Shown one piece after another: positions 13,673 to 34,034 of a stretch of DNA of 34,034 bases. The notes beneath the pieces are model-generated. The model saw nothing but the letters and a program-made list of their open reading frames with translations. It was not told the DNA's origin and ran no database searches. Numbering within the stretch: the stretch's first letter is position 1; every line of letters starts with the position of its first letter. The DNA comes from Chloroflexota bacterium (GTDB taxonomy: Bacteria; Chloroflexota; Anaerolineae; Promineifilales; Promineifilaceae), in NCBI GenBank assembly GCA_024223125.1, contig JAAEOP010000779.1, positions 1-34,034 on the forward strand, given 5' to 3'. The translations under genes were made by a program, and so were the position numbers.

Positions 13673-14903
13673 CTCGTGACTCTCCCAGTTCTCTGTGCCA
13701 CCACTCAAGGGTAAAGATAAAGAATGCGGATAAAATTGTCCCTGACAAAAAGGCAACAATTAGTAACAATGATCTATTTTGATTGGCTGGGTTTCTTGGC
13801 ACGGCCGCTTCACTAGCCAAACGCACCCCCTGTGTCGTATCGGCCGTTGTAATCTTTTCCTCTTCTACTTTGCGGGCTAAAACGGTAACGGTTTCTTCAA
13901 TAACTTTTTGCTCCCGCAGTAAACGATTGTGTTCTGTATCGGCCGTTTGCACATCTTCCTGCACTTCCAAAATAAGCGGAGATAATTCAGTTAGTTCTGT
14001 GTCAATCTGTGTGCCTTGTTCCTCTAAGGTCTCCAACAAACCATCTAGTTGGGCTATCTGTTCTTCACGGTCATCAGTTGTGAGTGGACGGCTTGTATCC
14101 AATTGAAACTGAATCGGCACGGCCGTCTCTGCATCTACTTGTACAGGATTAAAGGTTTTCATTTGCAGAAAGAGAGCGGAAAGCTGGTCGGCTGTGGTGA
14201 TGGGACCGTCCCCTGTGAGCGCTGCCAATTGGTTACGCAATGCCTGAGCATCTTGTGTCAAGCGGCCCATGGTCTGTTGTGTCGCTAACAAATTTGCCTG
14301 TGTCTGGCTGTAAGAATCTAACCTGTTTTGCAAAAGTAATTGCTGATTGACTGCTTGGAAAGCAATAAGCGCTTCTTCTGCCTGTTGCAAATCTTCTTGG
14401 GCGGTCTCCAATTGTTTTTCATAAAAGCGAGCTTGTTCTCCACTGGTATCCCCATAAATATCATTGGCCCAATTGACAAAAATAGCGGCCCAATTGTTGG
14501 CTAATGCGGCCGCTTCGGCCGGGTCTGGGGAAACGGCCGTCAACTGTATAATCGAAGCGTCACTGCCGCTTTCGGCCGTCAATCTATCGCGCAATTCATC
14601 GATTATTATTGGTTCTTCAAATGGCTGTTCGGTCAACAAATTATTTAATACCTGATCGCTTAATGCCAGATCGGGAAAAGCTTTGAGCGGTTCTACTTGT
14701 TCCGTTTCCCGAATACGTTGATCAAACTGGACAATGTTGCTCGCGCCGACGACAGCTACCAGCGATATTGCCTCATAGGTTGGCGTTTGCAAAGAAACAA
14801 CGATGAACGCTGCAACGGCGGCCAAAACTCCGGCACCTACAACCCAATACCAACGTTTAAGAATGGCCTCAATATACGGCCGTAAGTCAATCTCCTCTTC
14901 CAC
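13665..14903 (-). CDS. Wzz/chain-length determinant-like protein (copy 1)
   Basis: A 412-residue bitopic protein: DLRPYIEAILKRWYWVV leads into a first membrane helix (about 19-38), followed by a Wzz periplasmic region with long coiled-coil-prone Gln/Glu/Leu stretches (about 150-370), and a second helix near the C-terminus (about 375-395). No Walker motifs or tyrosine cluster follow, so there is no fused BY-kinase. Such polysaccharide co-polymerases set chain length with Wzy. The start codon is GTG at 14903 with TGGAGG seven bases upstream. It is followed by the aminotransferase gene with an eight-base overlap. It is paralogous to the next Wzz-like gene. Confidence 0.87.
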   Translation of the reverse strand: MEEEIDLRPYIEAILKRWYWVVGAGVLAAVAAFIVVSLQTPTYEAISLVAVVGASNIVQFDQRIRETEQVEPLKAFPDLALSDQVLNNLLTEQPFEEPIIIDELRDRLTAESGSDASIIQLTAVSPDPAEAAALANNWAAIFVNWANDIYGDTSGEQARFYEKQLETAQEDLQQAEEALIAFQAVNQQLLLQNRLDSYSQTQANLLATQQTMGRLTQDAQALRNQLAALTGDGPITTADQLSALFLQMKTFNPVQVDAETAVPIQFQLDTSRPLTTDDREEQIAQLDGLLETLEEQGTQIDTELTELSPLILEVQEDVQTADTEHNRLLREQKVIEETVTVLARKVEEEKITTADTTQGVRLASEAAVPRNPANQNRSLLLIVAFLSGTILSAFFIFTLEWWHRELGESRDE

Positions 14904-15049
14904 AAACAGCCTCCACTATCTCTCAAAACCTGAGGATAATACTCAATTAGCAAAATAAGAGCAAATTAAACGAAGTAAACGACAATATCATAATCGTTAT
15001 GAGTACAATCAATCTTTACCTATACATGGTTCTGATCGTTTTTACCTGG

Positions 15050-16456
15050 TTAACTTTCAGCAGAACTTGAATTTTCATTTGACTCTGTCTGCCACCATTC
15101 CCAAGCAAAAATGACAGTCACCATGAGACCAAAACTGAAGACAGCGGCAACCACCAACTTCAAAATGGTTTGATTGCTAATAGGTTCTTCTGGTGGAACA
15201 GCCGGACTGGCAAGACGCACTTCAGAACCCAACGTTTGCACCGCAATCTCTACTTCCGTTTGTTTTCTTAATAAGGTTTGGAAAGTCTCCCAGGCCAAAT
15301 CGCGTGATTGCATTAGCCCTCGTTTTTGAGCCGCCTCTGCTTCTTGTTGCGCTTCTAAGATTAGTAACGATTCATTTAGCTCTCTAATTTTCAAGTTAAA
15401 CGGATGCTCATCGGCCAAATTTAGATTATTCAAGTCAGAAGTAGATAAGTTGCTATTGATCTGTTCGATTTGTTCATTTGTGGTTTCATGGCGAAATTTC
15501 AAGACATTGATGAGGGTATCTACTTCTTCAAGATCTATACCTTCCCCTGGCTCATTGAAATTAATTTGTAATTCTACCGGCACGCCGCCACCAAACACAT
15601 CCCTCTGAAGAGAAATAAATGTGAGCGTATTTGCCAGTTTTTCGGCGTCTGAATTTTGTCCAATTCTTACCTGTTCGTGTAAGGTCTCGGCATCTATTAA
15701 CCACAGATCAACCCGTTTTAGATCATTATAATAAGTAGCCAATATTGCTTGCTGGTTGTCAATTTGTAATGTAATAGAACCCGATTGAATATTATTTCGC
15801 GCTTGCTGATAAGCGCCTAAAATCTCATTGATGGTATTAATTTCACGTTGCAACGAGGCTATTTCATTGTTATTAATAAACGCTTCCATATTTTGCTGAG
15901 ATGCTTCGTAAGCTGCTTCAGATGTCTTAACCTGATCAGTGATGAGTGACAGATTTGTGTCATCACTTGCGCTGTATAATTTGTTCGCGGTTTGTTCAAA
16001 GGATTGTGCCCATGTGTTGGCAATTTGGGCTGCAATCTCTGCATCCCGGTATTGAACAAGAATGTGGATCAGATCGCCGTCATTCTCAATTTCTACAAAT
16101 TCCAATAAAGAGGAGATGTTTTGCTCATCTTCAAGTAGCAATCCGCTAACTTCGGCTAGCGCCTGAACGGCAACTGCATTACTTTGTGCCAATCCGATCA
16201 ACGCATCTCGACGAGAATTTGCAACGCTGTCAAATAAATCAAACTCCCCTTCCGATAAGGTTTGAATTCGGGAACCAAATGATACATTCGTTCGAGAACG
16301 AACAATAGCGATTGATGATTTTGCTTTATATGGTGGTTCAAATAAGCGGGTGAAAAGAAATACGAAAGCTACAGTAAGAATAACGATGCCCACAATCTGA
16401 CGCCAATGCTGTATAAGCGTTTCGATATACGGCCGTAAATCAACCTCATCTTCCAT
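15050..16456 (-). CDS. Wzz/chain-length determinant-like protein (copy 2)
   Basis: A 468-residue protein with the same architecture as its neighbour: EDEVDLRPYIETLIQHWRQI, a first helix at about 18-37, a long helical external part with coiled-coil character, SPAVPPEEPISNQ just before the second helix (about 430-452), and a short charged tail. It lacks a cytoplasmic kinase domain. The ATG at 16456 has GAGGAG eight bases upstream. Two tandem copies sharing the opening DLRPYIE suggest an old duplication with divergence, perhaps two chain-length classes or a hetero-oligomer. Confidence 0.87.
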   Translation of the reverse strand: MEDEVDLRPYIETLIQHWRQIVGIVILTVAFVFLFTRLFEPPYKAKSSIAIVRSRTNVSFGSRIQTLSEGEFDLFDSVANSRRDALIGLAQSNAVAVQALAEVSGLLLEDEQNISSLLEFVEIENDGDLIHILVQYRDAEIAAQIANTWAQSFEQTANKLYSASDDTNLSLITDQVKTSEAAYEASQQNMEAFINNNEIASLQREINTINEILGAYQQARNNIQSGSITLQIDNQQAILATYYNDLKRVDLWLIDAETLHEQVRIGQNSDAEKLANTLTFISLQRDVFGGGVPVELQINFNEPGEGIDLEEVDTLINVLKFRHETTNEQIEQINSNLSTSDLNNLNLADEHPFNLKIRELNESLLILEAQQEAEAAQKRGLMQSRDLAWETFQTLLRKQTEVEIAVQTLGSEVRLASPAVPPEEPISNQTILKLVVAAVFSFGLMVTVIFAWEWWQTESNENSSSAES

Positions 16457-16555
16457 TACTTCAACTCCTCTCTAAAAATTCGCGGGACAATACCCAGGAA
16501 CATAAAGCGATGCAAATGAATGTGTTGCCTCAATTTCTTCTATAAGACATGTTGG

Positions 16556-16596
16556 AGATTATGGGATTTAATCTCCCAATCTCTCAATCTCCTAAT
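16556..16596. repeat. AATCTCC-type spacer repeat overlapping a stop codon
   Basis: The stretch contains imperfect tandem units AATCTCCCAATCTCTCAATC (plus strand) and ends at the stop codon of the 207-residue protein gene. Related units occur inside aroB (25123-25190) and between aroB and the cupin gene (25771-25806). Confidence 0.6.
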
Positions 16597-17215
16597 CCAC
16601 TTTATCCTCAGATTCGCTCTCACCCAACACCCGCTCCCTAAACTGATTCATTTGAAACTGTAATGAGTAGTTCATCATATACCAGATACCTTTCCACGTA
16701 TCCAGGTCTAGTAAATCCTCACGAGTAGCCCCTTGTAATGAGTCCATGATATTTTTGGCGATTTCTGGGGTGAATTTGTATAGTGTTTGTTTTACCAGAT
16801 TGATAGATGTATCTGGTTGCAATGGTGTAGGCAGGGTCTCATTCATCTTTATCCGCAGTTGGCCGGCCTGGAAGCGGGTCGAATAGCTAAACATATAAGC
16901 CATTCCCTTCCAGGTATCAATATCCATCATATCATCCCGGCTCATACCATCAAAGCTTTCTAAAATGCCTAATTGGGCATCAGGAGATAAACGACCCATG
17001 CTCTCACGAATGTAGGTCAGAAAAAACAGGGGAGAGTAGGCGTTGACGCCAGCCTGGGGCACGGCCGTTCGCAGCTCTGCCACCAACTGGTCTAACTCAT
17101 CCAATAATTCTCGCTTACGGGTCAGCAGTTCTGCCTCTTCCGCATTCATTAGAGGAGGGTTGTTTTCCTCTGAATCCTTGACGGCTGTTTCTTGTTCCTC
17201 ATGTTCTTCAATCAT
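16592..17215 (-). CDS. Unknown protein with internal duplication, first gene of the polysaccharide operon
   Basis: A 207-residue soluble, acidic protein. Residues 1-55 are Glu-rich and probably coiled coil (LLTRKRELLDELDQLVAEL). Two units of about 50 residues follow, at about 77-126 and 149-198. Both share SPxx/TPxx, D(I/L)DTWKG, YM, YS and a trailing F-Q-Q-R pattern, with a little under half of the positions identical by eye. There is no signal peptide or membrane helix. It is the promoter-proximal gene, just ahead of the two Wzz-like genes, so a regulatory or scaffolding role in polysaccharide production is possible. I do not recognise the family and assign no function. Confidence 0.75.
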   Translation of the reverse strand: MIEEHEEQETAVKDSEENNPPLMNAEEAELLTRKRELLDELDQLVAELRTAVPQAGVNAYSPLFFLTYIRESMGRLSPDAQLGILESFDGMSRDDMMDIDTWKGMAYMFSYSTRFQAGQLRIKMNETLPTPLQPDTSINLVKQTLYKFTPEIAKNIMDSLQGATREDLLDLDTWKGIWYMMNYSLQFQMNQFRERVLGESESEDKVD

Positions 17216-17250
17216 GTAACCAACTCTCCTTTCATGTAAAATCGGGTACC

Positions 17251-17279
17251 ATTATACTCCGTTTGAGCCGGGGCTAATA
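17251..17279 (-). promoter_or_regulatory. Probable promoter of the polysaccharide operon
   Basis: On the minus strand TATAAT (17251-17256) stands about 35 bases before the ATG of the duplicated-protein gene, with AAGGAG between. The -35 region is poor (TTATTA at 18-base spacing), so the assignment rests mainly on the perfect -10 box and its position. Confidence 0.4.
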
Positions 17280-17415
17280 ATTTCAAGCCACCACGCCACC
17301 TCATTTTTTTAGAAAGCGATTGCTCTGCTTTATACAGCCCTTGCCGGAATGGATATGGATTGGTAATGTATAATCAGATTACTCAATTATCCATTTACCT
17401 AAATTACTCCGTTTA

Positions 17416-17459
17416 GGCTTTTTCAAAAATTAAATGATCCTACCCGTTTTGAAAAAGCC
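17416..17459. repeat. 13-base perfect inverted repeat
   Basis: GGCTTTTTCAAAA at 17416-17428 pairs perfectly with TTTTGAAAAAGCC at 17447-17459 across an 18-base loop. It does not follow a gene end on either strand, so a simple terminator is unlikely. It may be a small mobile palindromic element. Confidence 0.7.
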
Positions 17460-17463
17460 TCCA

Positions 17464-17514
17464 GCCAATTCCCGAAATGACATCAATTCGGGATCATTAT
17501 TTTCTGGAATTGGC
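17464..17514. repeat. Nested inverted repeats
   Basis: GCCAATTCC (17464-17472) pairs with GGAATTGGC (17506-17514). Inside it TCCCGAA (17470-17476) pairs with TTCGGGA (17487-17493). The two pairs overlap at 17470-17472, so they could be alternative folds. Confidence 0.6.
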
Positions 17515-17599
17515 CTTACGCACTAAAGGGCGCACTGAAAACGCATTTACAGAAGAGATACCACGCACCGCAGCGCACCAACAAATGAAGGAAAATTGC

Positions 17600-17642
17600 A
17601 GCCCGATTTGGTAAATCGGGGGGCAATTTATCAAATCGGGCT
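17600..17642. promoter_or_regulatory. Inverted repeat just upstream of the glpK ribosome-binding site
   Basis: AGCCCGATTTG (17600-17610) pairs perfectly with CAAATCGGGCT (17632-17642), with further imperfect pairing inside. It ends about ten bases before TAGGAG of glpK, so as RNA it could shape the leader, and as DNA it could be an operator. The role is inferred from position. Confidence 0.5.
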
Positions 17643-17662
17643 ACATTTACATAGGAGTTAAA

Positions 17663-19168
17663 ATGGCAAAATATGTTGCGGCAATAGATCAGGGTACAAC
17701 CAGTACCCGCTGTATGATTTTTAACCATGCTGGTACACCGGTGGGGACACAACAGAGGGAACATAAACAAATTTACCCTAAGCCGGGCTGGGTGGAACAT
17801 GATCCCCTGGAAATTTGGGCGCGTACCCAGGATGTGGTAAAGGGGGCATTGCAAGCGGCCGCTATAACTGCGGCTGACATTGCGGCCGTTGGCATTACCA
17901 ATCAGCGAGAAACAACCGTTGTCTGGGATAAAACAACCGGCCAACCGCTTTACAATGCCATCGTCTGGCAGGACACTCGCACGGACAAAATTTGCAAAGA
18001 ATTGGAAGGTGGCGTGGGGCAAAATCGGTTCCGTGATAAGGTGGGGCTGCCATTGGCGACTTATTTTTCCGGACCAAAAATAAAGTGGCTGTTAGAGAAT
18101 GTGCCTGTAGTGGGTGATGCGGCCGCCAAAGGCAGCACCCTCTTTGGCAATATGGATACCTGGCTCATCTGGAATTTGACCGGCGGGGTCAACGGTGGAG
18201 TGCATGTAACGGATGTGAGCAATGCCAGCCGCACTATGCTTATGAATCTGGACAGCTTGCGCTGGTCAGACACGATTGCAAAGGTGATGGGGATTCCCCA
18301 GACGATGCTGCCAGATATACGGCCGTCGTCCCACATTTATGGCTACACAACAGAAGATGGCCCTTTTGGCGGCCGGATTCCTGTATCCGGCGACCTGGGA
18401 GATCAGCAGGCCGCTACCGTTGGTCAGGCTTGTTTTGATGTCGGTGAAGCCAAAAACACGTATGGCACCGGTTGCTTCATGATCCTCAACACCGGCACAG
18501 AGATTGTGCCTTCCAAACATGGTTTGCTGACGACGGTATGTTACAAGTTTGGCGACGAAGCGGCCGTGTATGCCCTGGAAGGGTCTGTGGCCATCGCCGG
18601 TGCGTTGGTGCAATGGCTGCGGGACAATTTCGACTTCTTCGACTTTTCTCACCATGTAGAAGATTATGCCCAAACGGTAGATGACAATGGCGGCGTTTAC
18701 TTTGTGCCTGCTTTTTCTGGTTTGTTTGCTCCTTATTGGCGCTCAGACGCTCGCGGCGTGATTGTGGGCCTGACGCGCTACGTTAACAAAGGACATATCG
18801 CCCGCGCTGCCCTGGAAGCGACCGCTTACCAAACCCGTGAGGTTTTGGATGCCATGAATCAGGATTCTGGCGTACCCTTAAAAACGCTGAAGGTGGATGG
18901 GGGAATGGTATACAACGATCTGCTGATGCAGTTTCAGTCAGATGTATTGGACGTGCCGGTGATACGGCCGCAGGTAGCAGAAACAACAGCTTTGGGCGCA
19001 GCATATGCGGCCGGTTACGCAGTCGGCTTTTGGCAAAGCAAAGATGAAATGCGGCAGAATTGGAGTGTGGACAAAACCTGGGAACCAACGCCGGACAGTA
19101 ACACCAGTACGGAACTGTATACTCATTGGAAGAAGGCCGTTACGCGCACGTTTGATTGGGTGGATTAG
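17663..19168 (+). CDS. glpK: Glycerol kinase
   Basis: A 501-residue FGGY-family kinase with the normal glycerol kinase length. It begins [17 protein letters not shown] (ATP/phosphate loop), has [18 protein letters not shown] and [10 protein letters not shown] (glycerol site), GTGCF, and the FGGY signature region [22 protein letters not shown]. It phosphorylates glycerol to sn-glycerol-3-phosphate in the cytoplasm, feeding the dehydrogenase encoded downstream. The ATG has TAGGAG seven bases upstream. It heads the glpKABC operon. Gene and reaction are clear. Confidence 0.97.
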
Positions 19169-19199: not shown

Positions 19200-19210
19200 T
19201 CCTAACTTGT

Positions 19211-20809
19211 ATGCGAATAATTCAGACGGAAGTTTTGGTGATTGGCGGTGGCGCGACCGGTACGGGGGTGGCAGCGGATTTGGCGCTGCGTGGGTTTAAG
19301 TGCGCCCTTGTTGAGAAACGGGATTTGGCGCATGGGACGACGGGACGGTATCATGGTTTACTGCACAGTGGCGGCCGTTATGTGGTCAAGGATCCGAAAG
19401 CGGCCGTTGAGTGCATTGATGAAAACGGTATCTTGCGCCGGACGTTGCCCCATTGTATTGAAGACACAGGTGGCTTTTTTGTGATGACGCCCTGGGATGA
19501 AGATGGGTATGGGAAACTATTTATTCAGGGCTGCCAGGAGACGGGCGTTCCCTGTGAAGAAATCTCCATTGCTCAAATGCTCCAGGAAGAACCCCATCTC
19601 AATCCCCACATTAGCCGCTGTTTCCGGGTTCCAGATGCGTCGGCCGATTCCTTTTTAGCTGCCCAGTCGGTAGCAGAATTGGCGCGGCAGCACGGGGCGC
19701 AAATTCTCAATTATCATGAAGTGAAGCAGCTTATCCGCCAGGGTGACAGGGTAATGGGGGCTGTCTGCCATGATTTGGTACGGGATGAAGAGGTAACGAT
19801 TTGGGCCGATATGGTAGTGAATGCGGCCGGGGCCTGGGTGGGTAAAGTGGCACAAACGGCCGATATTGAAGTGCGGGTAATAGCGGGCAAAGGTATCATG
19901 ATTGCGGCCAGTTATCGCATTGTCAATACAGTGGTCAACCGCTGCAAACTGCCGGCCGACGGTGATATTATTGTGCCCGCGCATACAGTCTCCATTATTG
20001 GCACAACGGATGAAAATGTACCTGACCCGGAGCGATTCGCCATTGAACCATGGGAAATCCAGTTGATGATGCAGGAAGCAGAGAAGCTGGTTCCTGGTTG
20101 GCAGGATTTGCGGATGCTGCGTTGTTGGGGCGGGGTACGGCCGTTGTACCAGGAAACAAAAACGGCTGATAGTCGTGATGTGACTCGCGCCTATACGCTG
20201 CTAGACCATGAATTGCGGGATGGGGTGACGGGCTTTATCACGATTACGGGCGGCAAATGGACAACGTTCCGGCAAATGGCTCAGGTGACGGTGGATCGGG
20301 TGTGTGAGAAGTTGGATACGCAGCGGCCGTGCATCACTCATGAGACTGTGGCCCCGCATCCATTTGCAAAGGGAGACGGCCGTCATCACCATTATTTAGG
20401 GCAGCGGCTGGCAAAAACGGAAGCGGAAAAAGGATTTGGACAGCTTATTTGTGAATGTGAACTGGTAACACGGGCGGATGTGGAGCAGGCCATTACCACA
20501 GGCCAGGCGAAGACGATTGACGACATACGCCGCGATGTGCGTGTAGGGATGGGGCCGTGCCAGGGTGGCTTTTGCACCTATCGTGTAGCCGCCATCTGGC
20601 GCCATTTGAAGGAAACGCCTATTGAAGAAACCAATGTCGCCCTGCGCGATTTTTTGCAGGAGCGCTGGAAAGGGTTGATGCCCATTCTGTGGGGACCACA
20701 GTTGAAGCAAGAACGCCTGGATGAACTGATCTACATGAGCGTCCTCAACGCCGATCATTTACCAGGCGAAAAGGCTTCGCGGTTAGGACCGGAAATGTAT
20801 GACGGATGA
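19211..20809 (+). CDS. glpA: Anaerobic glycerol-3-phosphate dehydrogenase subunit A
   Basis: A 532-residue flavoprotein. VLVIGGGATGTGVAADLALRG (about 7-27) binds FAD. GTTGRYHGLLHSGGRY and GKGIM with the later WGGVRPLY and ITGGKWTTFRQMA are typical of GlpA/GlpD. A C-terminal BFD-type domain has the iron-sulfur cysteines CEC (about 413-415) and GPCQGGFC (about 447-454), which GlpA has and aerobic GlpD lacks. It oxidises glycerol-3-phosphate to dihydroxyacetone phosphate, passing electrons on through GlpB and GlpC to quinone. The last codons and stop lie inside a palindromic repeat that also holds the possible glpB start. Confidence 0.96.
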   Translation: MRIIQTEVLVIGGGATGTGVAADLALRGFKCALVEKRDLAHGTTGRYHGLLHSGGRYVVKDPKAAVECIDENGILRRTLPHCIEDTGGFFVMTPWDEDGYGKLFIQGCQETGVPCEEISIAQMLQEEPHLNPHISRCFRVPDASADSFLAAQSVAELARQHGAQILNYHEVKQLIRQGDRVMGAVCHDLVRDEEVTIWADMVVNAAGAWVGKVAQTADIEVRVIAGKGIMIAASYRIVNTVVNRCKLPADGDIIVPAHTVSIIGTTDENVPDPERFAIEPWEIQLMMQEAEKLVPGWQDLRMLRCWGGVRPLYQETKTADSRDVTRAYTLLDHELRDGVTGFITITGGKWTTFRQMAQVTVDRVCEKLDTQRPCITHETVAPHPFAKGDGRHHHYLGQRLAKTEAEKGFGQLICECELVTRADVEQAITTGQAKTIDDIRRDVRVGMGPCQGGFCTYRVAAIWRHLKETPIEETNVALRDFLQERWKGLMPILWGPQLKQERLDELIYMSVLNADHLPGEKASRLGPEMYDG

Positions 20810-20836: not shown

Positions 20837-20841
20837 ATGCA

Positions 20842-22113
20842 ATGAACGATCTTCTAGTTATTGGTTCCGGTTTAGCCGGTTTAACGGCCGCCTGGCAGGC
20901 AAGCCAGTGTGGGAAGCGAGTGCAGCTTATCGCCAAAGGGTGGGGGGCGACACATTGGCACGCGGGTTGTGTGGATGTGTTGGGATATTGGCCGCTGGAG
21001 AGTGATACGGCCACTTCGGTTTCGCTCAGTACAGGCGTGACCAATCCCACCTCAAAACTGGTCGAACTCATCACCGAAAACCGGCAGCATCCTTATGCTT
21101 TGGTCGGGATAGAGACTCTCGTTAAGGCGTTGGATGGGTTTAAGCAGTTGTGTATGGCGGCAGGTTATCCTTTGCTTGGTTCACTGGAGAAGAATTGGCT
21201 GCTGCCGTCGGCCGTGGGTACGTTTCGGCCGACTTGCCTGGCTCCGGCAACAATGACAGCCGGAGATTTGACAAACGATGCGCCGATGTTGTTGGTAGGG
21301 TTTGAACAGTTGGTAGATTTCTTCCCCAATATTGCCGCGGATAATCTGACCCAACAAGGCATTCCTGCACGGCATGTGATGTTAGATTTGCCCACATTGG
21401 CGCAGCGACACATGCTGACATCTGTTATTTTGGCCCGTTTGATGGAGCAGCCAGCTTTTCGGGCAGAGGTTGTGGCGGCCGTAAAACCACATTTGGGCGC
21501 GGCGCAGCGGGTGGGTTTTCCGGCCGTGTTGGGGATGGAGCAGACAACGGCCGTGCATCAAGACTTACAGGTACAGTTGGGCCGGCCCATTTTTGAGATT
21601 CCCGGTTTGCCGCCATCGGTGGCCGGTATGCGGCTGCATCATATTTTGAAAACGGCCGTTGAGAAGAATGGCGGCCGAGTATTTGCGGGGATGGAAGCAG
21701 TTGGTTTTGAAGCTGAGGGGGGGCGGGTTACGGCCGTGCAAACAGAAGCGGCGGCACGAAATCGTTCTCACCATTACCAACAATATGTGTTAGCCACGGG
21801 CGGTTTGTTAGGAGGCGGCATTACAACCAACCATCTGGGTGAGGTGAAGGAAGTTGTGTTTGATTTACCGGTGCAAGGGACAGACGGCCGTCAATCATGG
21901 TTCCGGCAAGATTTTATGGATGCACGCGGTCATCCTATTTACCGTGCCGGGATTCAGGTGGATGATGCCTTGCGGCCGGTGGATGGGTACGGCCGTGTTC
22001 TGTATGAAAATTTGTATGCGGCCGGTACAACGCTGGCCCACTGCGAAGCCATCCGCGAACGTTCATTTGACGGCATTGCCCTGGCGACGGGATATGCGGT
22101 CGGGCAGGTGTAA
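20842..22113 (+). CDS. glpB: Anaerobic glycerol-3-phosphate dehydrogenase subunit B
   Basis: A 423-residue flavoprotein beginning MNDLLVIGSGLAGLTAAWQA (dinucleotide-binding), with KGWGATHWHAGCVDVLGYWP and ending GTTLAHCEAIRERSFDGIALATGYAVG, the pattern of GlpB-type FAD subunits. It links GlpA to the iron-sulfur subunit GlpC. I prefer the ATG at 20842, where the family sequence begins; an ATG at 20806 overlapping the glpA stop as ATGA is the alternative, adding 12 residues translated from the palindromic repeat. Neither start has a strong ribosome-binding site, so coupled translation is likely. The gene is especially dense in CGGCCG. Confidence 0.93.
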   Translation: MNDLLVIGSGLAGLTAAWQASQCGKRVQLIAKGWGATHWHAGCVDVLGYWPLESDTATSVSLSTGVTNPTSKLVELITENRQHPYALVGIETLVKALDGFKQLCMAAGYPLLGSLEKNWLLPSAVGTFRPTCLAPATMTAGDLTNDAPMLLVGFEQLVDFFPNIAADNLTQQGIPARHVMLDLPTLAQRHMLTSVILARLMEQPAFRAEVVAAVKPHLGAAQRVGFPAVLGMEQTTAVHQDLQVQLGRPIFEIPGLPPSVAGMRLHHILKTAVEKNGGRVFAGMEAVGFEAEGGRVTAVQTEAAARNRSHHYQQYVLATGGLLGGGITTNHLGEVKEVVFDLPVQGTDGRQSWFRQDFMDARGHPIYRAGIQVDDALRPVDGYGRVLYENLYAAGTTLAHCEAIRERSFDGIALATGYAVGQV

Positions 22114-22385: not shown

Positions 22386-23741
22386 ATGTCTTTTTTTGGC
22401 AGTGTTTCTTCCTATCCATGTTTGCAAAAAATGAATTCTAAAATTTGGGAAGCACAACTGAACATTGGATCGCACAGCCATAAACTGGCCGAATTGACGC
22501 TGGACCAATGTATCAAATGCAATATTTGTGTGACGGCCTGTCCGGTTACGGCCGTGACCGACCTGTTCCCTGGTCCCAAATATGAAGGGCCGCAGGCGGG
22601 GCGGTTCCGGCATGATGGACAGCCGGCGCCCGACCATTCGGTGGATTATTGTAATGGCTGCCGGGTGTGTAATATGGTTTGTCCTTCTGGGGTGCGGATT
22701 GCGGAGATGAACGGCCGTGCCCGTAGCCGCATCGTCCAATCTGGAGAAGTTCCCTGGCGGCACAGGCTGCGAAATAATCTCATTGCCCGACCAGAGTTGT
22801 TGGGTAAATTGGGGCAGCCGGTGGCTCCGTTAGCTAATATTTTACTACATAGTGGATTCGGCCGTTTCTTTGCCAACTTGTTGTTTGATATTGCCCCCAA
22901 TGCACCCTTGCCTGAATTTTCCCGCAAACGATTTAGCAAATGGGCCAAAAACCGATCTGGGGCTGTGCAAAGTTCACGCAAGGTGGTTTATTTTCATGGC
23001 TGTTCGACGGAATATTATGAGGCGCGGGTAGGTCAGGCGGCCGTGCAGACGCTAGAAGCAAACGGATTTGAAGTTCTTATTCCGCCGCAAAATTGTTGTG
23101 GGCTGCCGTTGCTTTCCAACGGTGAATTCGGGGCGGCGCAGGCGTTTCATGAGAGCAACATCCGTCAATTGATTGATTGCGTGAAGCAGGGGTATGTGAT
23201 TGTGGGCACATCCACAAGCTGCACCCTGACGCTCAAAGAAGAGGCTCCGGAACTGCTTTCTTACTATACCGATGAAGCCAACTTATTGGCGGCTAACACC
23301 TTTGATATCCACGAGTTTCTGGCGCTTTTATTAGATGCTGGCGACCTGAAAACGGAAGGCTTACGGCCGATTCCGATGACATTAGCTTACCATTCACCCT
23401 GCCAATATCGTGCTCATCGTATCGGCCGCCCCAGTATGGAAATAATGGATTTGATTCCTGAATTGACAATTGTTGAAAGTCAGGCAGCTTGTTGTGGGGT
23501 GGGCGGAACCTATGGGTATAAAGCGGAAAAGTATGATATTGCGATGGCTGTGGGACGGCCGCTCTTCGATTTTGTTCGCAAACTGAACGGCCCATTGGCG
23601 GTGTGTGACAGCGAGACGTGCCGCTGGCAAATTGCCGCAGCAACTGGCATTCCCCTTATCCATCCCATCGAATTATTAGCGGCCGCTTACGGCTATCCAG
23701 CAGAAGCCCCATTGGCGAGCGCATTAAACAACGGCCAATAG
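22386..23741 (+). CDS. glpC: Anaerobic glycerol-3-phosphate dehydrogenase subunit C
   Basis: A 451-residue iron-sulfur protein. CIKCNICVTACP and CNGCRVCNMVCP bind two [4Fe-4S] clusters. Two CCG domains follow with HGCSTEYYE...NCCGLPL and HSPCQYRAH...AACCGVGG. It takes electrons from GlpAB to the quinone pool at the membrane. The ATG at 22386 is chosen because GGGAGG stands eight bases upstream; the internal ATG at 22431 begins nearer the family sequence but has no ribosome-binding site. It is separated from glpB by about 270 bases of palindromic repeats, yet its own strong site allows independent translation. Confidence 0.95.
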   Translation: MSFFGSVSSYPCLQKMNSKIWEAQLNIGSHSHKLAELTLDQCIKCNICVTACPVTAVTDLFPGPKYEGPQAGRFRHDGQPAPDHSVDYCNGCRVCNMVCPSGVRIAEMNGRARSRIVQSGEVPWRHRLRNNLIARPELLGKLGQPVAPLANILLHSGFGRFFANLLFDIAPNAPLPEFSRKRFSKWAKNRSGAVQSSRKVVYFHGCSTEYYEARVGQAAVQTLEANGFEVLIPPQNCCGLPLLSNGEFGAAQAFHESNIRQLIDCVKQGYVIVGTSTSCTLTLKEEAPELLSYYTDEANLLAANTFDIHEFLALLLDAGDLKTEGLRPIPMTLAYHSPCQYRAHRIGRPSMEIMDLIPELTIVESQAACCGVGGTYGYKAEKYDIAMAVGRPLFDFVRKLNGPLAVCDSETCRWQIAAATGIPLIHPIELLAAAYGYPAEAPLASALNNGQ

Positions 23742-24064
23742 TCAACGGTCAATCATCAACAATTAAGAGGTTGGTACTAATTTCATTTCAACCGAGCAAT
23801 TTTAACAATTTTTGTAACCTTTTGTCAGTATAACTAAGTCTAAGGGTATCAAATACCTGAGTAAGGGTGACCTAAAACATACATTGCACCAACATCAACC
23901 CATCATAAAGCCACATCATTGCTTACATTAATACCGTATTGACGCGAACATCGAACTTCCATTGCTGCCCCACTGCTGCCTCAAACAAGCCTCATCTCGG
24001 CCGCATCGCTGCTAACAATCTAAAAACATCCTGCCCGTGTTTGTGTCCACCCTGAAAAAAGAAT
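23742..24064. other. Intergenic region after glpC, nothing recognised
   Basis: Between the convergent glp and aro operons. Apart from short GTCAACGGTCAAT-like spacer units right after the glpC stop, I see no coding remnant, RNA gene or repeat here before the two hairpin terminators. Confidence 0.5.
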
Positions 24065-24685: not shown

Positions 24686-25765
24686 TTAGATTTCACCTTG
24701 TACGGCCGTCACGGCCGCCAACACATCTTTTTCCAAAATATTGGCAGCAATAAACACATCCCCCACATCTCGTAGCAATATGAAGCGAAGTTGACCGGAA
24801 GCTTTTTTCTTGTCACTCCACATGGCCTGGTAAATGTGGCTGGGGGAAAGCGTTATAGGAATACGGGTATCCAGGTTGGCTTTTGCTAAGGCATTTTCGA
24901 TGCGGGTTTGCAATAGGGGGTCGCAGAATCCCAGCCGGGCAGAAAGATTGGCGGCGGCGACCAGACCCATGCCCACACCATAGCCGTGGCTAATACGATA
25001 TTGGCTGACTTGCTCAATAGCGTGGCCAAAGGTGTGCCCAAGATTGAGAGTTGCGCGACGGCCGTGTTCAAATGGATCCTCCATGACAACATCCCGTTTT
25101 ACCTGAATGGCACGGGTTACAAGAGATTGGAGATCGGAGATTGGAGATTGGAGATTGACGTTTAGTTGCCAATTTCCAATCTCCAATTCTGCAAACAACG
25201 CCGGAGCATTGATCAAACCGTGTTTAATGACTTCAGCCATGCCAGCGCTGAGTTCTGCCGGCGGGAGGGTTTGTAGGGTGGTGATGTCGCTTAAGACGGC
25301 CGTGGGCTGCTTAAATGTGCCTACTAAATTTTTGCCTTGGGGCAAATCCACGCCTGTTTTACCGCCCACGCTGGCATCTACCATTGCCAACAAAGTAGTA
25401 GGGCACTGCACAAAATCAATACCACGCATGAAAGTGGCAGCCACAAAACCGGCTACATCCCCCACCACGCCGCCACCCAACGCGACAATCGTGCCAGAGC
25501 GATCTATGCCTGCTGCCAAAAGCTGGGCATACAAATTGTTGGCAGTAGCCAATGTTTTGTTTTTTTCTCCAGTGGGGATAGTCAAAATACAGGCTGGCTG
25601 CCCACACTTGGCCGCGTGTAAGGGGCCAACGTTGCTGTCCGTAATGAGGGCAAAGGGGCCAGAAATTTGGGTGAGTTCTGGTAATTGCTCTAATAAATGA
25701 GAACCAACATAAACCTTATATTGCCCGGTGGGATGGGTGATTCGCAGGGTCGTGAATTTGTTCAT
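24686..25765 (-). CDS. aroB: 3-dehydroquinate synthase carrying an in-frame repeat insertion
   Basis: A 359-residue enzyme with [19 protein letters not shown] (NAD site), [28 protein letters not shown] and [12 protein letters not shown], the metal and substrate motifs of AroB, which makes 3-dehydroquinate from DAHP. The ATG at 25765 begins [12 protein letters not shown] as in the family; the open frame continues upstream without meaning. Residues roughly 190-215 (LEIGNWQLN...SPISDLQSL) are translated from a palindromic repeat that also occurs between genes, in a region that is variable in AroB. All catalytic motifs are intact, so the enzyme is probably active. Confidence 0.95.
25123..25190. 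repeat. Palindromic spacer repeat inside aroB
   Basis: ATTGGAGATTGGAGATTG (25140-25157) pairs with CAATTTCCAATCTCCAAT (25170-25187), one mismatch in 18, flanked by another GATTGGAGATCGGA unit at 25125. Related units lie at 16556 and 25771 outside genes. The reading frame of aroB passes through it. Confidence 0.8.
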
Positions 25766-26132: not shown

Positions 26133-26617
26133 GAGATTATCTCCTCTGCAACTTGTACGGCCGTTTTGCCATCTGTTTGTATTTGGGTAAAACGGCCGTA
26201 AGCTGCTTCACGTTGAGCCAATAAAGATTGAATACGAGTGGCGGGATTGGGGACATTAAGCAACGGCCGTTTTGATGTCTCCTCTACCCGACGCAAAATT
26301 TCTTTCGGAGCGGCCGTCAGGCAAAAGACACGGCCGTTTTTAGTGAGAGCGGCCGCATTAACAGGGTCTAACATCAAGCGGCCGCCGGTGGAGATGACGA
26401 GATTGGTTCGGCCGGCCAATTCCAGCGCCACGGCCGTTTCCATCTGCCGGAAAGCTGCTACGCCTGATTGGGCAAAAATGTCCGTAATGGGTCGGCCGTC
26501 GCGGGCTTCAATCAAAGCGTCGGTATCAATGAACGTAAATCCCAACTTCTCAGCCAGTAGCTGCCCGACAGTTGTTTTACCCGTACCCATAAACCCGGTA
26601 AGGACAATATTTTTCAT
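26114..26617 (-). CDS. aroK: Shikimate kinase
   Basis: A 167-residue P-loop kinase: GFMGTGKTT (Walker A, residues 8-16), FIDTDALIEARDGRPI (shikimate-contacting Asp), FRQMETAVALEL, RPLL and the lid/adenine region RIQSLLAQREAAYGRF. It phosphorylates shikimate to shikimate-3-phosphate with ATP. The usual GGG motif of the substrate site reads GGR (STGGRLML), a difference worth noting but not enough to doubt function. It is the first gene of the aroK-cupin-aroB-aroQ operon; the ribosome-binding site is weak (no clear AGGAG before the ATG). Confidence 0.95.
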   Translation of the reverse strand: MKNIVLTGFMGTGKTTVGQLLAEKLGFTFIDTDALIEARDGRPITDIFAQSGVAAFRQMETAVALELAGRTNLVISTGGRLMLDPVNAAALTKNGRVFCLTAAPKEILRRVEETSKRPLLNVPNPATRIQSLLAQREAAYGRFTQIQTDGKTAVQVAEEIISWVSTK

Positions 26618-27363: not shown

Positions 27364-27400
27364 AGATATATCCAGGTATCTTTTGGATTTCGTATGAAAC

Positions 27401-27531: not shown

Positions 27532-28266
27532 GTGACATCGGCAACAGACGGAATTAAATTATACCTAAGCCGGCAGGCAAGCAGCACAAGCCGTTATGTT
27601 TTGGAACAAACGCTTTATCTTCTGATAGGTTGGATTCCAACGGTTATTGGTATTGGTCTTCGTGGGATTTTATACCGACTTATCTTAAAAATGGAGGGGC
27701 AGGCAGCAATTGAAAAGGGAGTCCGCCTCCGCTTTGCCGATAACATCAAATTAGGGCACGGCGTTTATTTAGATGAGAAAAGTTATCTTCATGCTTGCCC
27801 CAGCGGTATAGAAATTGGGGACGAAACAATTATCATGCACGGAGCCATTTTGCACGTTTATAATTTTCGTGACTTGCCAAAGTCAGGTGTTACAATCGGC
27901 AAGAAAAGTCTGATTGGTGAATATTCAGTTATTCGCGGACAAGGAGGGGTGACAATTGGCGACCGGGTGTATACCTCTCCATTTACCCAGATTATTGCTG
28001 TAAACCATGTATTTGCTGACCCAGAACGGCCGTTTACAGATCAAGGCATTACGGCCGAAGGAATTGTCATTGAAGATGATGTCTGGCTTGGAGCCGGCGC
28101 AGTTATTACCGACGGCGTTTGCGTAGGACGGGGGGCCGTTGTGGCTGCTGGAGCAGTTGTCACGAAAGATGTTCCCCCACACAGCGTCGTGGCCGGCATT
28201 CCGGCCCGCAAGATTAAAGAAATTGATGGCACGGCCGTTCACTCCGATCGCACCGTTTACCTTTAG
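27532..28266 (+). CDS. Hexapeptide-repeat (left-handed beta-helix) acyltransferase
   Basis: A 244-residue protein. Residues about 22-50 are hydrophobic ([20 protein letters not shown]), probably a membrane-associated segment. From about 60 the sequence has the [LIV]-G-x4 hexapeptide rhythm ([47 protein letters not shown]), ending [12 protein letters not shown] as in O-acetyltransferases of the WbbJ/LacA group. AVNHVF supplies the usual catalytic histidine. The start is GTG at 27532, since an in-frame stop lies just upstream. It would acetylate a sugar or lipid-linked glycan; it is followed 29 bases later by the GT2 gene. Confidence 0.88.
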
Positions 28267-28295
28267 ATAAGGAAATATTCTCTCAGGTATTTAAT

Positions 28296-29497
28296 ATGAC
28301 AACATTATCTGTAGTAATTCCCGCCTACAATGAAGAAGACGGCATCGCCGAAATTGCCCACCGCGTTCTATCTATTCGTGACGCTCTCAAACAGGTGGGC
28401 GTAGATGGTTTAGAACTTTTAGTTGTGGATGATGGTTCCTCCGACAAAACAGTAGAAATTGCCGGTGACATTACCGGCGTTACATTGGTGCGGCACCCTC
28501 AGAATAAAGGGTATGGCGGCGCTCTAAAAACCGGTTTCAGCCAGGCGTCCGGTGAATTGATTGGTTTTTTAGATGCTGATGGTACGTACCCGCCAGAATA
28601 TTTTCCACAGCTTTGTCAGGCAGCTATTGATGGGGCTGATTTAGTTGTCGGGTCGCGCCGTTCCGGCGCCGAAAGCCATATGCCGGCCACGCGAAAATTA
28701 GGCAACTTCATTTGGTCAAACCTGCTCACGATTTTGGGGAATCATAAAGTGAATGATCCGGCCAGCGGCATGCGCGTATTTAAGCGAGAGATTTTGGACA
28801 AGGTTTATCCGCTGCCAGATGGTCTGAATTTGACGCCGGTCATGAGTACCCGCGCCGTGCATGAAAATATTGAACTGGAAGAGATTCCAATACCATACAG
28901 TGAACGTCTCGGCGACTCTAAATTGAGCGTGGTGAATGACGGTACTTTATTTTTACAATCCATCGTCTGGACAGCGTTGACGTACAATCCGGTGCGCCTA
29001 TTAGGGTTAATCGGGTTAGCCAGTATTGGTATCGCTGTGTTGGTGATGCTTGGTTTGATTATCGCCCGGCTCAGTAATGTCACGACGTTGAATGTATTTG
29101 GCGTAGCCGCCATTTTCACTGCTCTGGTGGCTTCAGTCGGTGGTATCAGCATTTTTGCACTAGGGGTTACATTTAATTATATGGTTTCTATTTTTCACGG
29201 CCGTCAAATTCGGCAAGGTCTATTTAAGAAACCCTTGTTTAAGAAACCCATCGAACATCATTTTGGTTGGCTGGGTCTGGTTGGCCTGGTGGCTGGTCTT
29301 TTGCTCGGAGCCGTGAGTATAGGGTTGACCATTGGCGGTAACTGGCCCATTGAAAGGCTGTGGTTTTATATGCTAATGAGCGCCATGTCTATTCTGGTGG
29401 GAATGCAGTTATTGGTTTACTGGATATTACTGCGAGTTTTGGAAGAATTAAGTCAGCGCGAAGTGGCAATTGCCCAAGACTTAAAGGGGTATGGATC

Positions 29498-29501: not shown

Positions 29502-31237
<1,736 letters not shown>

Positions 31238-31239
31238 TG

Positions 31240-31380
31240 TAAAGCTGCCAGATCATCTATTGCCGTGTTTTGTTGAATGGCAACGGCCGCTGCTGCCAAC
31301 CTCACAGCCTGCCGTCCCGCCGCCCCACCAGCCAGGTGACATCTACTCCCAGCCGATTAAACAGATAAGCAAACTCACTC
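31240..31380 (-). pseudogene. Possible decayed fragment of a pyridine-nucleotide-disulfide oxidoreductase
   Basis: In one minus-strand frame the sequence reads EFAYLFNRLGVDVTWL (about 31325-31377), like the NAD-binding part of such flavoproteins. A different frame then gives AVRLAAAAVAIQQNTAIDDL, like their C-terminal dimerisation domain. Frame breaks and missing middle make it a remnant if real. The match is by eye and could be chance. Confidence 0.35.
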
Positions 31381-31451
31381 CTTGTTTTGTGCGGTGATTT
31401 GCGTGGGGGTAGTGAACACGGCCGTCTCCCCATCACCCTACCCCCCACTGT

Positions 31452-32693
31452 CTACACGGTTTTCAAATATTCACGAATAAGCAGCGCGGCCGTAGCTCCT
31501 TCTCCGGCCGCGCTGGCAACTTGTTTGGTGCTGGTAGCGCGGACATCTCCGGCGGCAAAAATGCCGGGAACACTGGTTTCTAGGATGTGGGGTTCACGGC
31601 CGTTAAATCTCGCCAACGGCCCTCCATCATGCACCAGATCGTGCCCGGTCACAATAAACCCCCACTCATTAAGCGTCACACCACTCTCTGCCAGAAAAGC
31701 GGTATTCGGTTTCAGCCCAATGAAGATAAAGGCGCCGTCTACAGCCAGCGTGTCCGTTTCGCCCGTCTGGTTATTGATCAGGTTGATTTGATTGAGCTTG
31801 GCTTTGGCTCCCTCAAATTCTCGTACTTCCGTATGCCAACGCACCTCAACCTTAGGATCGTTGAGTACATTTTCCTGAATAATCTGGCTGGCCTTAAATT
31901 TGCCGGAACGTACCAGGACAGTTACTTTGTCGGCAAATTTGGTTAGCAGCAGGCTTTCTTCGGCCGCGCTGTTGCCGCCGCCCACTACTACCACATGTTT
32001 GCCTTTGTAAAATGGCCCATCACAGGTGGCGCAAAAGTGGATACCGGCCCCAATGTATTTGGATTCGCCGTTTACGTTGAGTCGTTTATATTTGCTGCCA
32101 GTCACAATGAGCAGGGCGCTGCCGCTGTATTCGCTGCCATCGGCCGTAAATACATAATGGTAATTATCGTGGCTGTGAATGTTAACCACATCTTGTGCCT
32201 GTAAAAGCTCTACGCCGAACTTCTCCGCTTGCTGCCGCAGCCGGTTAGAAAAATCCAGCCCAGAGATACTGTCGGGGAAACCGGGCATGTTGTCCAACTT
32301 TTCTGTTGCGGCCACCTGACCGCCAAAAGCAGCTCGTTCGATGACCAGGGTGTCTATTCCTTCGCGGGCAGTGTAGAGGGCGGCCGTTAACCCGGCCGGC
32401 CCGCCGCCAATAATGACCAGATCATAATGATGGCGGCTGGCAGTGGTTTTTAGCCCCAATTTGGCGGCCAATTCCGCATTGCTCGGTTCCACCAATGTAG
32501 AGCCATCCTCAAAAAGAATGGTGGGAATGATACGTTTGCCCTCGTTGGCCTGGATAACAAACGTTTCGGCCTCTTTATCTTGCTCAATATCTACCCAGTT
32601 ATAAGGAATTTGATGCTCGCCTAAAAATTGCTTGTTGCGACGGCAATCCGGGCACCAATGAGCGCCATAAAGGGTGATGGTTGGTTCGGTCAT
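31452..32693 (-). CDS. Glutaredoxin-thioredoxin reductase fusion
   Basis: A 413-residue protein. Residues 1-80 are a glutaredoxin/NrdH-like domain with WCPDC (active Cys14 and Cys17) and the cis-Pro segment RIIPTILFEDG. From about 90 it is a low-molecular-weight thioredoxin reductase: GGGPAG (96-101, FAD), CATC (221-224, redox), GGGNSA (238-243, NADPH) and GIFAAGDVRA near the end. NADPH electrons would flow through FAD and CATC to the attached glutaredoxin domain or to free thioredoxin. The ATG has AGGAG seven bases upstream. The usual reductase is about 310-320 residues, so the extra domain is clear. Confidence 0.93.
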   Translation of the reverse strand: MTEPTITLYGAHWCPDCRRNKQFLGEHQIPYNWVDIEQDKEAETFVIQANEGKRIIPTILFEDGSTLVEPSNAELAAKLGLKTTASRHHYDLVIIGGGPAGLTAALYTAREGIDTLVIERAAFGGQVAATEKLDNMPGFPDSISGLDFSNRLRQQAEKFGVELLQAQDVVNIHSHDNYHYVFTADGSEYSGSALLIVTGSKYKRLNVNGESKYIGAGIHFCATCDGPFYKGKHVVVVGGGNSAAEESLLLTKFADKVTVLVRSGKFKASQIIQENVLNDPKVEVRWHTEVREFEGAKAKLNQINLINNQTGETDTLAVDGAFIFIGLKPNTAFLAESGVTLNEWGFIVTGHDLVHDGGPLARFNGREPHILETSVPGIFAAGDVRATSTKQVASAAGEGATAALLIREYLKTV

Positions 32694-32891
32694 CTGTCTC
32701 TCCTGTTTTGCCGGTATAATTAAGATTGGCTGCTGCTTTTTTAGACGAAGCTTGGCGGGAAAGTCGTACTGTTAAGTTGGTTACAACTGACAGCCTGATG
32801 GAACGTGTCAAGAGTACTTCGACTAGTTTCAGGGGGGGATTGCAACGGCCGTCTCTCTCTACCCCTTTTGTCTGAGCAGTACCAGTCCCAC
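32694..32891. other. Intergenic region with a CTTCGA-type spacer repeat
   Basis: Contains ACTTCGACTAGTTTCAG at about 32817-32833, related to ACTTCGATAAACTCAG near 33570. A TTGACA on the minus strand (about 32805-32810) has no convincing -10 box. No gene is seen. Confidence 0.4.
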
Positions 32892-33524
32892 CTAATCTTC
32901 TAAAAGGATGGCCCGACAGGGAGCGCCATCGCTGCCGGGGATGAGGAGGGGCAGGCAGATGAATTGGTATGTGCCGGGGGAAATGTGATGGAGATTTAAT
33001 CCTTCTACGGGAATGACGCCCGCGCCTAATAAAATTTGATGACATTCGACAAGAGCCGTAAACGGAGCAACGGAAAGGTAATCAACGCCCACCAGTTTGA
33101 TACCATGATCTACCAACCATTGAGCGCCAACGGTCGTAACAGCCACATACTCTTCATAAAAATCGGTTTCACCGGCCGCCCAGCGAGCGGAATTGCTGGT
33201 TTTGATGAGGAGCCGTTTTGTGCCTGGAGGGATGGACAAGGAGTCTAACACCTCTGCGGTAATTTGGGTTGCATTTAATGTTTCGACGACGACGGCCGTG
33301 CCCACCAATACCTGCAAATCCAACGTTTCCACACCTCGGCCGTCGGGGATGAAATGGGCCGGTGCGTCCAGATGGGTTCCGGTATGGGCGCTCATAGCGA
33401 CAGCGCTGAGGGTGCAAATGTCCCCTTTGTCCATATCTAATTCACGCTTGATGGTTACCGGCGGATCGCCTGGCCAGACAATTAGATTGGGGGAAATGGG
33501 GAGGGTGAGGTCGTGTATTTTCAT
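32892..33524 (-). CDS. Cyclase family protein (kynurenine formamidase-like metal hydrolase)
   Basis: A 210-residue protein with DLTLPISPNLIVWPGDPP at the start and SAHTGTHLDAPAHF (the HxGTHxDxxxH metal-binding motif, residues about 45-58) followed by IPDGRGVETLDL. Later GVDYLSVAPF and CHQILLGAGVIPVEGLNL complete the family pattern, where VxGAN/L-like histidine and glutamate positions act in hydrolysis. Members include arylformamidase KynB and isatin hydrolase. No other tryptophan-degradation gene is nearby, so the substrate is open. The ATG at 33524 has only a weak upstream site. Confidence 0.9.
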   Translation of the reverse strand: MKIHDLTLPISPNLIVWPGDPPVTIKRELDMDKGDICTLSAVAMSAHTGTHLDAPAHFIPDGRGVETLDLQVLVGTAVVVETLNATQITAEVLDSLSIPPGTKRLLIKTSNSARWAAGETDFYEEYVAVTTVGAQWLVDHGIKLVGVDYLSVAPFTALVECHQILLGAGVIPVEGLNLHHISPGTYQFICLPLLIPGSDGAPCRAILLED

Positions 33525-33904
33525 GGGGATTGGATAATATCATTATTTTTTGCTATGCCAACGACGGATACTTCGATAAACTCAGCACAAGTTGAAGGAA
33601 GGAGCGGATAAGAGCCCACCATTTCTACACGGCCGCTGCCCAACCCATCTGTCAACAAAACACGCTGCTCTGTGCCATCGTCTACAAATATCAAATCCAG
33701 GCCAAAGAGGTTTGTTGTTTGGGTTGTGCCGTCGTCGCTCATTAACACCTGGGAGAGGCCCATGTTGTCGTTGTGGTAGGTGGTGGTAACGGCCGCATCA
33801 TAAGTAAACAGCGCCTGACCGGTTTCGTTGAAGGTCACGGCCGCGCCAAAGTAATCATTTGCCTGGCCATCGGCGGCCGTTTTTAGATCAAAGGCCCAAA
33901 ATCT
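33521..33904 (-). pseudogene. RHS/YD-repeat protein remnant
   Basis: An open stretch without a credible start reads TYHNDNMGLSQVLMSDDGTT, LFGLDLIFVDDGTEQRVLL and TDGLGSGRVE, the end of the repeat region and the DGLGSxR hallmark that precedes the core in RHS/YD proteins. Upstream of a stop at 33905 the similarity is lost, and the last 30 or so codons are translated from a CTTCGATAAACTCAGCACA-type spacer repeat. RHS proteins normally run to well over a thousand residues, so this is a small relic. It slightly overlaps the cyclase start and the HicA-like stop. Confidence 0.65.
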
Positions 33905-34034
33905 TTACGGCTAATGCCCAATTCACGTATGATGGCTCTCACCGTCCCCGGCGCTAAGTCTTTTGAACCCCAATCTGGTATAGACGCTACTTGATTGGTT
34001 GCCGGATTGTGCCATATACGATGACTTCCCTTAC
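33883..34034 (-). CDS. HicA-like toxin, 5'-truncated by the window edge
   Basis: The last 49 residues read KGSHRIWHNPATN, IPDWGSKDLAPGTVRAIIREL and GISRKDFGPLI, matching the C-terminal two thirds of the HicA/YcfA double-stranded-RNA-binding-like mRNA interferase fold. The His in KGSH is the catalytic residue of the family. The N-terminus lies beyond 34034. HicA toxins are normally paired with a HicB antitoxin; a downstream HicB is not present here (the 3' side carries the RHS remnant), so it must lie upstream, outside the window, or be lost. Confidence 0.75.
   Translation of the reverse strand, partial: KGSHRIWHNPATNQVASIPDWGSKDLAPGTVRAIIRELGISRKDFGPLI

Follow-up and report, generated by a model that had tools for sequence, protein, structure and literature searches.

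A HIP1-like palindrome with core CGGCCG and lineage-dependent dialects in a Chloroflexota clade and in phage DNA

Why one short palindrome should recur so often in bacterial DNA, and what keeps it there, is the question raised by a 34,034-nucleotide stretch of contig JAAEOP010000779.1 (hereafter the window). The hexamer CGGCCG, often extended by an outer A/T pair to the octamer ACGGCCGT, was likened in an earlier note on this DNA to HIP1, the highly iterated palindrome of cyanobacteria. The likeness was borne out and could be extended: the over-representation was found to be genome-wide in relatives of the window's bacterium (to which the genome-wide counts below refer), to span a clade, and to be conserved position by position. 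We read it as a HIP1-like system with a new core, lineage and dialect behaviour, whose sites a putative recognition protein would maintain individually.

Enrichment and dialects in a single clade

The window holds 101 CGGCCG, 93 of them right of position 13800 (about 90 by the earlier hand count), and 35 octamers, the number given before, 33 of them in the right part. The composition of those 20,234 bases predicts 4.3 hexamers (roughly one per 4 kb in the earlier note) and 0.28 octamers. Masked Markov models of orders 1 to 3, trained after the hexamers had been cut out, expect 4.2-6.3 and 0.20-0.31 there. An order-4 model without masking expects 73.6 hexamers, a figure inflated by sub-words of the motif; maximal-order models are uninformative because they absorb it. 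Among words seen at least five times in the right part, CGGCCG was the most enriched palindromic hexamer and ACGGCCGT the most enriched palindromic octamer. Hexamers and octamers occupy all three frames and both strands. With some gene starts trimmed by hand, hexamers outside called genes start at 23998, 31284 (31281 in the earlier note), 31419, 32846, 33630, 33790, 33838 and 33874, of which the last four may fall in a gene cut by the window end; two octamers marked in Table 1 are likewise intergenic. Codon bias, already judged insufficient by itself in the note, and amino-acid bias are ruled out by this spread over frames, strands and intergenic DNA, and enrichment in one codon phase only was not what was found. 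Chance by base composition is ruled out by the window and whole-genome counts.

Relatives of the GlpA protein placed the window in Chloroflexota, near metagenome-assembled genomes (MAGs) called Anaerolineae and Ardenticatenaceae. Twenty of 80 loci, in 19 contigs (L001-L010, L012-L014, L020, L044, L045, L052, L062-L064), carry ACGGCCGT at 56 to 138 times the order-1 expectation. The whole-genome maximum was 15,176 octamers in 7.5 Mb, compared to 183 reversed-control octamers, and 22 of the 396 genomes in the class exceed 1,000; hosts with the A/T outer pair (A type) carry about 1-2 per kb. The genome-wide counts in relatives proposed in the note thus gave values far above expectation rather than near a Markov level. 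Enrichment is similar in size in coding and intergenic DNA, with observed-to-expected ratios of 76 and 112 in G002, 50 and 38 in G010, 34 and 60 in G020, 7 and 7 in G013, and 70 and 138 in phages.

Every carrier that could be placed on an RpoB tree (48 rows out of 54 genomes) belongs to a single Chloroflexota clade: the 32 core-enriched genomes, including four weakly enriched ones, group together with a support of 100 in the Shimodaira-Hasegawa-like approximate likelihood ratio test. Three genomes with high octamer counts (G009, G018, G372) gave no RpoB match, and G257 (2.4 times) is likewise unplaced. The tree requires five changes among six motif states, the minimum; the branch uniting all A-type rows is weakly supported (46).

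Within the clade, the core CGGCCG is constant and the outer pair is lineage-dependent (A/T, G/C, T/A or none), in the manner of dialects, so that sister genomes carry alternate palindromes in place of ACGGCCGT. G010 has GCGGCCGC at 256 of 296 cores, extended to CGCGGCCGCG at 125, and G020 has TCGGCCGA at 267 of 318, extended to TTCGGCCGAA at 102; G401 prefers AACGGCCGTT (18 of 23 octamers). In four genomes (G013, G172, G296, G366) the bare hexamer predominates, enriched 7 to 11.6 times, and its flanks hold hardly any information in the three tested (G013, G172, G366); in other genomes, flank information delimits palindromes of 8-10 bp. Core enrichment is weak, 2.2-3.7 times, in G060, G091, G136 and G305. 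The window, with the hexamer enriched about 15 times and the outer A/T at about a third of hexamers, is intermediate between decorated and hexamer-only genomes. Outer G and T variants reach 2.9-4.6 times expectation in A-type sets and 16 times in the window, and lie at 0.36-0.87 of expectation in G010 and G020; 31 of 53 listed single changes, from overlapping pairs of A-type sets, hit octamer position 1.

Hexamer positions shared across dialects exceed shifted controls (L002: 4 vs 0.25 and 10 vs 0.28). The non-carrier L016 shows the same excess against L002 (3 vs 0.03), so that protein homology alone could explain the shared positions, and a re-decoration of old sites is not supported. Other words are also frequent in some sets: L004 has 5 GTAATTAC (about 50 times) and L001-L010 together 14 (about 12 times), and CAGCTG, ACCGGT and CTGCAG are enriched 2.4-4 times in G013 (L015, L155-L160).

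Conservation and spacing of sites

Between relatives at 72-97% nucleotide identity, 61-100% of octamers were shared, compared to 10-82% for GC-matched octamers, in 17 overlapping pairs, all within the A type, whose loci measured about 18 kb at most; in the pair of L008 and L009 the figures were 89% vs 17%. The comparison with synonymous neighbours that the note had suggested gave the same picture, since fourfold-degenerate third bases inside octamers were kept at 0.79-1.00 and codon-matched ones at 0.39-0.76 (19 directional comparisons). Against genomes of another or no dialect, the same bases showed no clear excess (0.36-0.53 vs 0.38-0.57; the largest figure, for L015, was 16/30 vs 12.1). The conserved unit is sharp-edged: identity inside the octamer is 0.90-0.99, and falls to background from the first base outside.

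Words one change away from the motif (one-offs) bear on how broken sites fare. Core one-offs occur at 0.85 of expectation in G002, 0.87 in G010, 0.39 in G020 and 0.78 in phages; in these four of the five sets, massive enrichment brings no surplus of core one-offs, which indicates that core-broken sites do not linger there. Codons within sites were also compared with orthologs of other dialects or non-carriers, and their amino-acid matches fell below the residue-matched expectation in 17 of 18 comparisons, the exception being L002 against L016 (6/8 vs 5.5). These comparisons overlap and are not independent: for the A octamer, L011, L015 or L017 served as reference in 14 of 15. The deficit implies that the sites either cost protein sequence or occupy loosely held positions.

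A repair or conversion drive, in which a sequence-specific mismatch repair turns near-sites into CGGCCG palindromes and protects existing ones, would yield such patterns with no function for the sites; it amounts to Elhai's idea for HIPs without a known methyltransferase. The depletion of core one-offs in G020 (28 vs 72 expected) and the codon deficit are consistent with it, as are octamers in loci around methyltransferase genes (142 in 109 kb, 1.3 per kb) and in phages, and the presence of MutL in 41 of 42 genomes. However, MutL is equally present in non-carriers, the G020 depletion extends beyond changes of the C-to-T type, and the hexamer-only G013 shows no depletion. The endonuclease Vsr, expected in carriers if the sites were very-short-patch repair targets, turned up in only 8 genomes out of 38, six of them carriers and two non-carriers. 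We regard such a drive as possible but doubtful.

Spacing is close to random, with about one motif per 430-610 bp in decorated genomes, and short gaps are scarce (12 under 50 bp vs 43 expected in A-type glp loci; 21 under 25 bp vs 50 in G002). A repeat family or mobile element is ruled out by this spacing together with the end of conservation at 8-10 bp. Near-random spacing with few very short gaps in the A type, and a palindrome with lineage-specific flanks, would suit a motif bound by an abundant protein that organises the nucleoid or chromosome, yet binding proteins seldom have flank-free sites such as the hexamer of the three genomes tested, no gene stands out as a candidate, and the sole sharp spacing peak, near 46 bp in G002, is due to one tandem array; this alternative is improbable. 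The array itself (C12:159306-166368; L209-L210) alternates two types of unit, each 45-46 bp long, with an exact ACGGCCGT in nearly every unit and the remaining unit sequence diverged.

Phage records, candidate genes and window layout

A scan of IMG/VR for octamer pairs returned at least 80 loci; such scans select for the motif, so that the densities are no random sample. Among the matches listed, 20 records were counted whole, with densities of 0.7-3.5 octamers per kb in 15 of them and no more than 0.15 in the other 5; the tailed-phage records among them had densities host-like or higher. Five records carry 1.6-3.5 octamers per kb, namely G405 (227 in 65.5 kb), G406 (85 in 33.5 kb), G407 (93 in 40.4 kb), G408 (54 in 34.0 kb) and G414 (106 in 46.2 kb), and each has at least one of the portal, terminase and head-protease genes, with a tape-measure gene also in G407. 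Phages conserve the octamer among themselves: sharing, counted in both directions on non-overlapping pieces, was 32/36, 10/10, 10/11 and 4/4, compared to 0.43, 0.47, 0.31 and 0.03 for matched octamers. Two further scans, for the other dialects, gave mostly chance matches among those listed; notable exceptions are short fragments of the T dialect (L450, 11 of 13 cores; L455, 9 of 10) and of the G dialect (L594, 13 of 15 cores). One phage gene of ParB-like/DNA methyltransferase type (L427:17855-19126) has six octamers within its own 424 codons.

The phage records bear directly on a reading of the motif as a DNA uptake signal for natural transformation. The uptake sequences of Neisseriaceae have dialects, as part of the account in PMC3630211 describes, and the Chloroflexota motif resembles them in its constant core, tree-congruent dialects and thousands of copies. 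Those sequences accumulate in the core genome (same account), whereas the motif is as dense in phage records as in hosts or denser and is conserved there, and is also perfectly palindromic. ComEC was found in 40 of 42 genomes, but also in all 7 non-carriers searched; neither it nor MutL separates carriers from non-carriers. Among the explanations weighed here, an uptake signal is the least probable.

A HIP1-type system proper would have a GGCC- or CGGCCG-specific methyltransferase that marks the sites, with methyl-directed repair or another reader maintaining them. This has the closest precedent, as alternate HIPs coincide with a matching methyltransferase according to passages of Elhai (2015; PMC4390886), in which HIP1 is given as GCGATCGC. 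The hexamer-only genomes resemble a flank-free type II recognition site, and many carriers hold C5 or N4/N6-type enzymes of unassigned specificity. Gene content nevertheless gave no support to the cognate methyltransferase that the earlier note had envisaged. PF00145 (cytosine-C5 methyltransferase) had no match in 8 of 19 carriers, and four of these (G003, G008, G012, G013) had at most weak matches to PF01555 (N4/N6 methyltransferase), negatives in which MAG gaps and uncharacterised enzyme families leave room. D12 enzymes are absent in G013, G021 and G366, weak in G001 and present in 4 of 7 non-carriers; the eight scanned all bear Dam-family names and fall into at least two groups by sequence. 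The N4-type enzyme G002a, from genome G002, proved a false lead: at 45% identity or more, it is present in at least 5 non-carriers as well as in 6 carriers. No cognate enzyme shared across carriers was therefore found among PF00145, PF01555, D12 and this N4-type family, none of the C5, N4/N6 and D12 enzymes or Vsr tracks the trait as a clade-wide driver would, and we consider a methyltransferase-based system unlikely. Since part of the carriers yielded no such enzyme, the mark is called HIP-like here rather than a methyltransferase-linked HIP. The N4-type enzymes (L271-L278) have DPMVGSGTT before SPPY, an order unlike PF01555, and are patchy across the class.

The window itself falls into two parts (Table 1). 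The left 13.8 kb holds 8 CGGCCG and 2 ACGGCCGT, and its polysaccharide/sulfotransferase cluster is probably a recent acquisition; HIP density may date horizontal arrivals.

Table 1. Parts of the window and positions of the octamer
Feature	Position	Strand	Remark
HIP-rich part	13801..34034	.	glycerol kinase/glp, shikimate, radical SAM, thioredoxin reductase-like, cyclase genes
HIP-poor part	1..13800	.	polysaccharide/sulfotransferase cluster, GC 0.41
ACGGCCGT	10293..10300	.	exact count
ACGGCCGT	10666..10673	.	exact count
ACGGCCGT	14119..14126	.	exact count
ACGGCCGT	14533..14540	.	exact count
ACGGCCGT	14876..14883	.	exact count
ACGGCCGT	16429..16436	.	exact count
ACGGCCGT	17061..17068	.	exact count
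ACGGCCGT	18319..18326	.	exact count
ACGGCCGT	20137..20144	.	exact count
ACGGCCGT	20376..20383	.	exact count
ACGGCCGT	21547..21554	.	exact count
ACGGCCGT	21652..21659	.	exact count
ACGGCCGT	21730..21737	.	exact count
ACGGCCGT	21884..21891	.	exact count
ACGGCCGT	21989..21996	.	exact count
ACGGCCGT	22548..22555	.	exact count
ACGGCCGT	22711..22718	.	exact count
ACGGCCGT	24702..24709	.	exact count
ACGGCCGT	25058..25065	.	exact count
ACGGCCGT	25296..25303	.	exact count
ACGGCCGT	26157..26164	.	exact count
ACGGCCGT	26192..26199	.	exact count
ACGGCCGT	26263..26270	.	exact count
ACGGCCGT	26330..26337	.	exact count
ACGGCCGT	26430..26437	.	exact count
ACGGCCGT	28026..28033	.	exact count
ACGGCCGT	28231..28238	.	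exact count
ACGGCCGT	29197..29204	.	exact count
ACGGCCGT	29586..29593	.	exact count
ACGGCCGT	29720..29727	.	exact count
ACGGCCGT	30316..30323	.	exact count
ACGGCCGT	31418..31425	.	between called genes
ACGGCCGT	31596..31603	.	exact count
ACGGCCGT	32845..32852	.	between called genes
ACGGCCGT	33292..33299	.	exact count

A possible self mark and its relation to known motifs

It is fairly probable that the sites are maintained one by one through sequence recognition, with no clade-wide methyltransferase for the core. Among specific accounts, we tentatively favour a Chi-like self mark read by a DNA-processing enzyme, ahead of the repair drive, a methyltransferase, a nucleoid protein and an uptake signal, in that order. 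Chi sites are short, over-represented and species-specific, and are a plausible self mark that is also useful to phages; the Chloroflexota palindrome is likewise short, over-represented, lineage-specific and plausible as a self mark. From recognition to benefit, the steps are ones that we infer. A putative vertically inherited protein would recognise the core CGGCCG together with the lineage-specific outer base pairs, and DNA with too few copies would fare worse in these cells, most simply if a nuclease-helicase of repair or degradation were restrained or redirected at the site. The logic would be that of Chi, but a palindrome would work in both directions; DNA methylation would not be required for the reading, and chromosome and phages alike would be selected to keep sites. 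The reading in full, a methylation-independent, bidirectional, palindromic mark of self DNA, inherited vertically in an order-level Chloroflexota clade with outer-pair dialects and adopted by the clade's presumed phages in the same dialects, is offered as a tentative one.

Several observations weigh against such a self mark. A mutational or repair drive on whatever DNA these cells copy would account for the phage evidence just as well, and it also predicts the codon deficit (for example, 28/58 identical vs 39.1 expected). G002 has a surplus of outer-position one-offs, and phages a strong one (all-position ratios of 1.20 in G002, 0.89 in G010, 0.43 in G020 and 2.50 in phages), and the core ratio in G013 is slightly raised, at 1.22; partly broken sites do, therefore, persist. 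Chi sites, in the known cases, are asymmetric and are not known to keep their positions to such a degree, and the present motif is far denser. Open reading frames (ORFs) of AddAB size (970-1208 amino acids) with PDDEXK_1 occur in only 5 of 35 presumed clade members, so that AddAB, the best known of the enzymes that read Chi, does not extend across the clade, in a search that did not take in RecBCD and AdnAB. No reader protein for the palindrome was found among the gene families searched. A standalone PD-(D/E)XK (PDDEXK_1) protein of 267-331 amino acids, present in 32 of the 35 presumed clade members, is only a weak candidate, because 3 of 7 non-carriers (L680-L682) have relatives of about 30% identity. 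This protein is fast-evolving, with clustered C-terminal cysteines, and often ends in LEPxLP (L674-L679, ORFs in L683-L694).

EagI- and NotI-type enzymes recognise CGGCCG and GCGGCCGC, respectively, which are also the core and the G-dialect octamer; restriction, however, selects against its sites, and here they are enriched. With HIP1 and its alternates, as described in part of PMC4390886, the motif shares a GC-rich palindrome at roughly 0.5-2.5 copies per kb, and a constant core with changed outer bases in some genomes. The genome-wide enrichment, its spread over coding and intergenic DNA in all frames, and the alternate palindromes of sister genomes are those of a HIP. It is not HIP1 itself (GCGATCGC is absent from the window, and CGATCG occurs twice), and it differs in its core, in its phylum, in the confinement of inherited dialects to one clade, in the phages that carry and conserve it, and in that no shared cognate methyltransferase was found among the families searched. 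Cyanobacterial HIP1 has been reported as kept by selection (a passage of PMC6604393, citing Xu et al. 2018). The open-access literature, to which the search was confined (subscription papers and preprints lay outside it), gave no report of a CGGCCG palindrome as a Chloroflexota genome mark.

To our knowledge, HIP1 has been unexplained since the 1990s and studied in one phylum. The Chloroflexota motif constitutes a second, denser HIP-like system, whose clade is clearly bounded and whose one core has four dialects; with its motif-free outgroups and phage carriers, it offers natural experiments that cyanobacterial HIP1 lacks. It casts doubt on the need for a dedicated methyltransferase in every case, and it predicts a CGGCCG-reading protein in all clade members that differs between dialects. 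Octamer and hexamer counts would, in addition, assign contigs and phages to this clade.

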